A DNA stretch of 48,718 bases from an uncultured Pelagibacteraceae bacterium. Its GTDB lineage: Bacteria; Pseudomonadota; Alphaproteobacteria; Pelagibacterales; Pelagibacteraceae. The position numbers were made by a program, and so were the translations under genes. The stretch spans positions 1-48,718 of the forward strand of contig CACOQC010000006.1 in assembly GCA_902629215.1 (NCBI GenBank), given 5' to 3'. The notes below the pieces were generated by a model. It ran no database searches. It was not told the origin of the DNA and saw only the letters and a program-made list of their open reading frames with translations. This document shows positions 46,243 through 48,718 of this stretch, one piece after another; the first letter of the stretch is position 1, and each line of letters starts with the position of its first letter.

Positions 46243-47103
46243 CTACTGAAGTTTTTTCTTTAAAATCTCATTTATAAGTTGAGGATTGGCTTTACCACCA
46301 GAAGCTTTCATTGCTTGACCAACGAAGAAACCAAATAATTTTTCCTTGCCTTGTTTATATTCAATTGCTTTTTCTCTATTGTCATTTATTATTTTATCAA
46401 TTAAAGCCTCTATTGCTTTAGGATCACTTTGTTGTTTAAGTCCTTTTTCTTCAACTATTTTTTGAGGATCTTTATCTCCATCCAACATTAATTCAAATAC
46501 AGTCTTTGCTATTTTTCCTGAAATTGTTCCATTCTTTATCAAGTTAACTAGTATAGCTAAATTCTTTGCACTTACTGGACTTTGAGAAATTTCTAAATTT
46601 TTATTATTTAAAACTGCAAATAATTCACCTGTAATCCAGTTAACTGCTAATTTCATATCTTTGTTCTTACCCATCTTAGCTACAACCTCTTCAAAATATT
46701 TTGCTGTATCGATATCTGAGACTAAAATTGTTGCCTCATATGGTGACAGCTTAAATTCTTCAATAAATCTTTTTTTTTTATCATCTGGTAATTCTGGGAT
46801 ATTATTCTTAAGTTCTTTAACAAATTCATCAGAAACTTCTAAAGGTAACAAATCAGGATCTGGGAAATATCTATAATCATGTGCATCTTCTTTTGATCGC
46901 ATTGATCTTGTTTCATTTTTTTTTGTGTCAAATAATCTTGTCTCTTGATCAATTGATTTACCTTCTTCAATTAAATCAACTTGTCTATTTGCTTCATATT
47001 CAATAGCCATTTGCATAAATTTGATTGAATTTACATTTTTAATCTCACATCTTGTTCCATATTCTTTTGAACCTTTTGCTCTTACAGATACATTTACATC
47101 TGA
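46243..47103 (-). pseudogene. gatB: Aspartyl/glutamyl-tRNA amidotransferase subunit B, 5'-truncated (about 287 C-terminal codons remain)
   Basis: GatB-like sequence from [40 protein letters not shown] to C-terminal YqeY-like domain; upstream of D (47098-47100) the frame is antisense of pyrB. Confidence 0.9.
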
Positions 47104-47251
47104 TGCATTAATTATGCATCCTGGGCCGATGAATAGAGGTATTGAAATAGATACAGTGCTAGCTGATGACATAAACAAGAGTGTAATTAAAGAACAAGTT
47201 GAGCTTGGAGTAGCCGTAAGAATGGCTTGTTTAAAGATATTTTGTACATAA
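47102..47251 (+). pseudogene. pyrB: Aspartate carbamoyltransferase catalytic subunit, C-terminal fragment only (about 49 codons)
   Basis: [47 protein letters not shown] is the ATCase C-terminus; stop abuts the pyrC-like ATG at 47252. Confidence 0.9.
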
Positions 47252-48538
47252 ATGAAAAAACAATATTTTATAAATGCCAACATTGTAGACCCTCATAATT
47301 CAATTAATGAAATTGGAGGATTAATTATAAGCGAAGATGGTAAAATTGAAGCTGTAGGAAAAAAAGTAAATACCAACAACCTTCCAAGTAGAGAAAAGCC
47401 AATAGATTTAAAGGGAAGATATATTTTTCCAGGATTGGTAGATATGAGAGTTTTTGTTGGTGAACCTGGTTATGAATACAAAGAAAATTTTAGAACCTTA
47501 AGTAATGCAGCTTTATCAGGAGGTGTTACCTCTGTCGTTACAATGCCAAATACAGACCCAATTATAGATAATGTATCTATAGTAGATTTTTTAAGAAGAA
47601 GAGGAAGAGATAAATCAAAAATAAATATTTTTCCATGCGCTTCACTTACAAAAAATGTTGAGGGTACGAATATGACTGAATTTGGTCTTTTACAAAGTAA
47701 AGGAATAATCGCTTTCACAGATGGAATAAAAACAATTCAAAACCCTAGATTAATGTCAAGAATAATGAATTCTGCAAAAGATTTAGGTTGTTTAATTATG
47801 CAACACGCCGAGGACTATGAACTTGCGAAGAATGGTATGATAAATTCAGGAATTATTGCCTCTAAACTAGGATTATCCGGTATACCAGAAATTGCAGAAA
47901 GAATTTTAATTGAAAGAGATTTAACATTGTTAGAAAAAGTTAAATGCAGGTATCACATATCTCAATTATCATCACAAAAATCGATTGAAGTAATAAAACA
48001 CAGGAAAGAAATCGTAAAATTTACTTCAGGTGTTTCTATTAATAATCTTTCATTAAATGAAAACGATATTGGAGATTTTAGAACTTTTTTAAAATTATCT
48101 CCCCCATTGAGAAGAGAGGAAGATAGAATTGCATTAGTTGAGGGATTGAAAGATGGTTTGATTGATGTCATTGTTTCTGATCATAAACCAGAAGATGAAG
48201 AGTCTAAAAGATTAACATTTTCACAAGCTGCTACGGGTGCATCAGGAATAGAAACACTATTATCTTTGAGTTTAGAATTATACCATAATGGTTCTCTTAA
48301 ACTTGAAACAATTATAAAAGCTCTAACTTCAAATCCGGCAAAAATATTAAAAATAGATAAAGGTAATTTATCTACAGGGAATGACGCAGACCTATGTATA
48401 GTTGATATTGATAAACCTTGGATTGTAAAAAAAGAAAAATTAGTCTCAAAATCAAAAAATACTTCAATTGAAGATAAAAAATTACAAGGAAAAGTTACTA
48501 ATACATTTGTAAAAGGTAAAGAATTATTTAAGCTGTAG
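47252..48538 (+). CDS. Dihydroorotase-like protein, probably non-catalytic (PyrC')
   Basis: Amidohydrolase/DHOase fold, but HxH is replaced: [13 protein letters not shown]; retains VSDHKPED; adjacent to pyrB. Confidence 0.88.
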
Positions 48539-48539
48539 T

Positions 48540-48718
48540 ATGGATATTTTTTTAATAGGTATAATTTCATACCTTATGGGTTCTATACCATTTGGGCTTA
48601 TACTCACAAAAATATTTTTAAATAAAGATATAAGAGAAATTGGTTCTGGTAACATTGGAGCTACTAATGCACTAAGAACCGGGAATAAAACTATTGGTTA
48701 TTCCACATTAGTCCTAGA
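48540..48718 (+). CDS. plsY: Glycerol-3-phosphate acyltransferase PlsY, N-terminal part; runs off the right edge
   Basis: [50 protein letters not shown]. Confidence 0.93.

Follow-up and report, generated by a model that had tools for sequence, protein, structure and literature searches.

A gatB/pyrB junction in a draft SAR11 genome is very probably an artefact that skips 3.7 kb of chromosome

The gatB/pyrB junction at positions 47098–47102 of the window (the entire contig C6, 48,718 bases) is very probably an artefact, either a chimeric molecule or a misjoin, in which 3,701 bp of real chromosome are skipped. The first-pass annotation had offered three explanations: a chimeric or collapsed assembly, a defective or mixed population, or relocation of the genes. 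An artefact is the best supported of the three, given a join that is unique, an adjacent hole in the assembly and a failure to find GlnRS, while relocation is unsupported in the assembly. The source assembly (G000) comprises 1.06 Mb in 47 contigs, with 84% completeness and 0.1% estimated contamination, and its closest genomes are Pelagibacteraceae (SAR11). Judging from isolate names, we take its nearest relatives to be almost all single-amplified genomes, and the source assembly itself appears to be a single-cell genome.

Both genes lose their 5′ ends at one point, as the first-pass annotation had recognized: the resemblance to GatB, carried by a minus-strand open reading frame at 46243–47283, stops at 47102–47103, and the match to PyrB starts at about 47098. 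The gatB remnant (46243–47102, minus strand) retains the C-terminal 286 codons with 98–99% amino acid identity to the best relatives’ GatB, and its Pfam GatB_N match is restricted to positions 190–276. The open frame at this locus encodes 349 aa, compared to 458–496 aa in all 30 other genomes with a GatB match. Relative to a 492-aa GatB (L015), about 206 codons have been lost, in agreement with the roughly 200 N-terminal residues originally estimated. Likewise, most of PyrB is gone, as had been stated: the pyrB remnant (47098–47251, plus strand) holds the final ~51 codons, with 92% identity to residues 261–313 of a relative’s PyrB, so that about 260 of 313 residues are missing. The fused open reading frames at 46243–47283 and 47021–47251 should not be read as genes. 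Downstream on the plus strand, pyrC (47252–48538) is intact and has 428 aa as in relatives, followed by plsY (48540–48718), which is truncated by the contig end at 48,718 and encodes a 192-aa protein in relatives.

We compared the window to the corresponding locus of Pelagibacteraceae genomes, with genes named by their sequence similarity and by known gene families. These relatives encode gatC-gatA-gatB on one strand and ruvX(yqgF)-pyrB-pyrC-plsY-topA on the opposite one. Left and right of the junction, the window has its genes in the order and orientation of the relatives, but it lacks 3,701 bp and its plsY is cut by the contig end. The proposed ancestral order of gatB-gatA-gatC and pyrB-pyrC is therefore the one that relatives show, with ruvX as an additional gene in the missing stretch. 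Across all 76 Pelagibacteraceae loci that contain both sides, the skipped stretch measures 3,701 bp (73 loci) or 3,702 bp (3 loci) and includes the 5′ part of gatB, gatA, gatC, ruvX and most of pyrB. A synteny comparison with a closed genome (G012) found colinearity between about 4 kb and 47.1 kb of the window, resuming past the join. Because the skipped stretch is constant in 76 loci and the closed genome is colinear on both sides, one deletion of a few kb, as first suggested, accounts for the junction, without inversion or relocation.

Alignment of both sides to 14 relatives showed that the gatB-side match runs through 47102 and the pyrB-side match begins at 47098. The 5-bp word ATCTG (47098–47102) thus belongs to both sides, and the breakpoint cannot be placed more finely; it falls inside the interval of 47098–47105 proposed by the first-pass annotation. 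The join is clean and in direct orientation. ATCTG is present at both distant points in 18 of 76 relatives, and the probability that a random join shares at least 5 bases, at this base composition, is about 0.011. A collapse of the k-mer assembly over a long repeat was ruled out, as the breakpoints in relatives share just 5 bp exactly.

The join also borders a hole in the assembly, because contig C6 stops only 1.6 kb beyond it and, on the closed genome, about 9.7 kb separate that end from the start of the next contig (C2). By comparison with that genome, the gap holds the 3′ part of plsY, topA and the genes that follow, and this ~9.7-kb stretch between the end of C6 (48718) and the start of C2 was not found elsewhere in the assembly. 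Coverage around the join was presumably poor.

Whole-genome amplification of a single cell is the most likely source of this junction. A displaced 3′ end would have re-primed at the 5-nt match ATCTG about 3.7 kb away and, if the region was very thinly covered, the chimeric reads would have been those that were assembled. When single cells are amplified by MDA, displaced 3′ ends are known to re-prime at short complementary words (PMC1855051). Among 475 chimeras from single-cell MDA, 15% were direct joins, and where directly joined segments were less than 10 kb apart, 90.9% had complementarity of at least 2 bp (Lasken and Stockwell 2007, PMC1855051). As in these chimeras, the window joins two segments that lie close together in the true genome (3,701–3,702 bp apart in 76 of 76 relatives) at a short complementary word, ATCTG, with the intervening DNA missing. 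Nor do related genomes share the junction, which occurs in 1 of 399 genomes of the same genus, namely its own assembly. Unlike most MDA chimeras, which are inverted, the gatB/pyrB join is in direct orientation, and direct joins over less than 10 kb make up a small share of such chimeras (11 of 475; PMC1855051), which counts against an MDA origin. Moreover, no inverted chimeric repeats were found at 20 other contig starts of the assembly. Because direct joins over such distances are rare and these contig starts lack inverted chimeras, we infer the MDA route rather than regard it as established. Misassembly is a further source of such joins: the GORG single-cell pipeline, when benchmarked, produced 1.5 misassemblies per 100 kb (PMC11247762), and they are therefore to be expected in a 1-Mb draft. 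Altogether, we infer that the join arose in amplification or assembly rather than in the cell.

Alternatively, the sequenced cell, or a subpopulation, could have undergone a genuine microhomology-mediated deletion that impaired both glutaminyl-tRNA formation and the synthesis of pyrimidines and left it dead or dying; this alternative survives best and is nevertheless unlikely. A genuine deletion would fit a clean, direct join with 5 bp of microhomology, as in vivo deletions show microhomology too, but such an event would have lost or broken five adjacent conserved genes, no other genome among the 399 of the same genus carries the join, and the join happens to adjoin an assembly hole. The failure to find GlnRS weighs further against it. 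No GlnRS above the curated cut-off was found in the source genome or in any of six relatives, of which five are 99–100% complete; the search returned just a weak partial match in a frame of 467–469 aa, as expected of GltX. Bacteria that lack GlnRS require GatCAB to form Gln-tRNA(Gln). Because no GlnRS was found, GatCAB should be indispensable and its deletion lethal, and a living cell could hardly do without it. That a SAR11 cell had truly lost the 5′ part of gatB, gatA, gatC, ruvX and pyrB and was living temporarily on existing enzyme is highly unlikely.

It is more doubtful still that the two sides of the join come from different strains, through mixed cells or reads, and were fused in assembly. 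The closest relative does switch across the join: on the left it is L011 (95.8%), whereas L018 takes its place on the right (97.1%, compared to 80.5% on the left). However, the best partners on the left and right differ in 57 of 73 compared sequences, nearly all of which are intact loci, and the estimated contamination is 0.1%. Since the other sequences differ likewise, the switch reflects the ordinary mosaicism of SAR11 at this locus rather than evidence for mixed cells. As a separate observation, the pyrB-pyrC-plsY tract (47098–48718) is 97% identical to positions 2685–4305 of L018 (AH-287-G21), compared to about 80% left of the join, and no other relative exceeds about 92% in this tract. 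This similarity suggests a recent recombination there between the L018 lineage and the source lineage.

Relocation of the genes elsewhere in the genome, with remnants left at the locus, is the least credible explanation: an unassembled copy is conceivable in a draft that is 84% complete, but DNA and protein queries of the rest of this incomplete assembly yielded no second gatB, gatA, ruvX or pyrB, contrary to the relocation first envisaged, and none of the 76 relatives’ loci has another arrangement. The GatA and RuvX queries gave matches in all five control genomes. A second GatA-like amidase of about 442 aa, which all five compared genomes possess, was likewise not found in the assembly, as would be expected when a draft is incomplete.

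An artefactual junction carries consequences for how this genome is read. The living cell is expected to have intact gatCAB, ruvX and pyrB at their usual place; the loss of essential genes that the draft seems to show probably has no biological basis, and the organism itself most probably lacks the deletion. That gatA, gatC, ruvX and pyrB are missing from the draft calls for caution, and should not be taken to mean that a streamlined genome has shed them.
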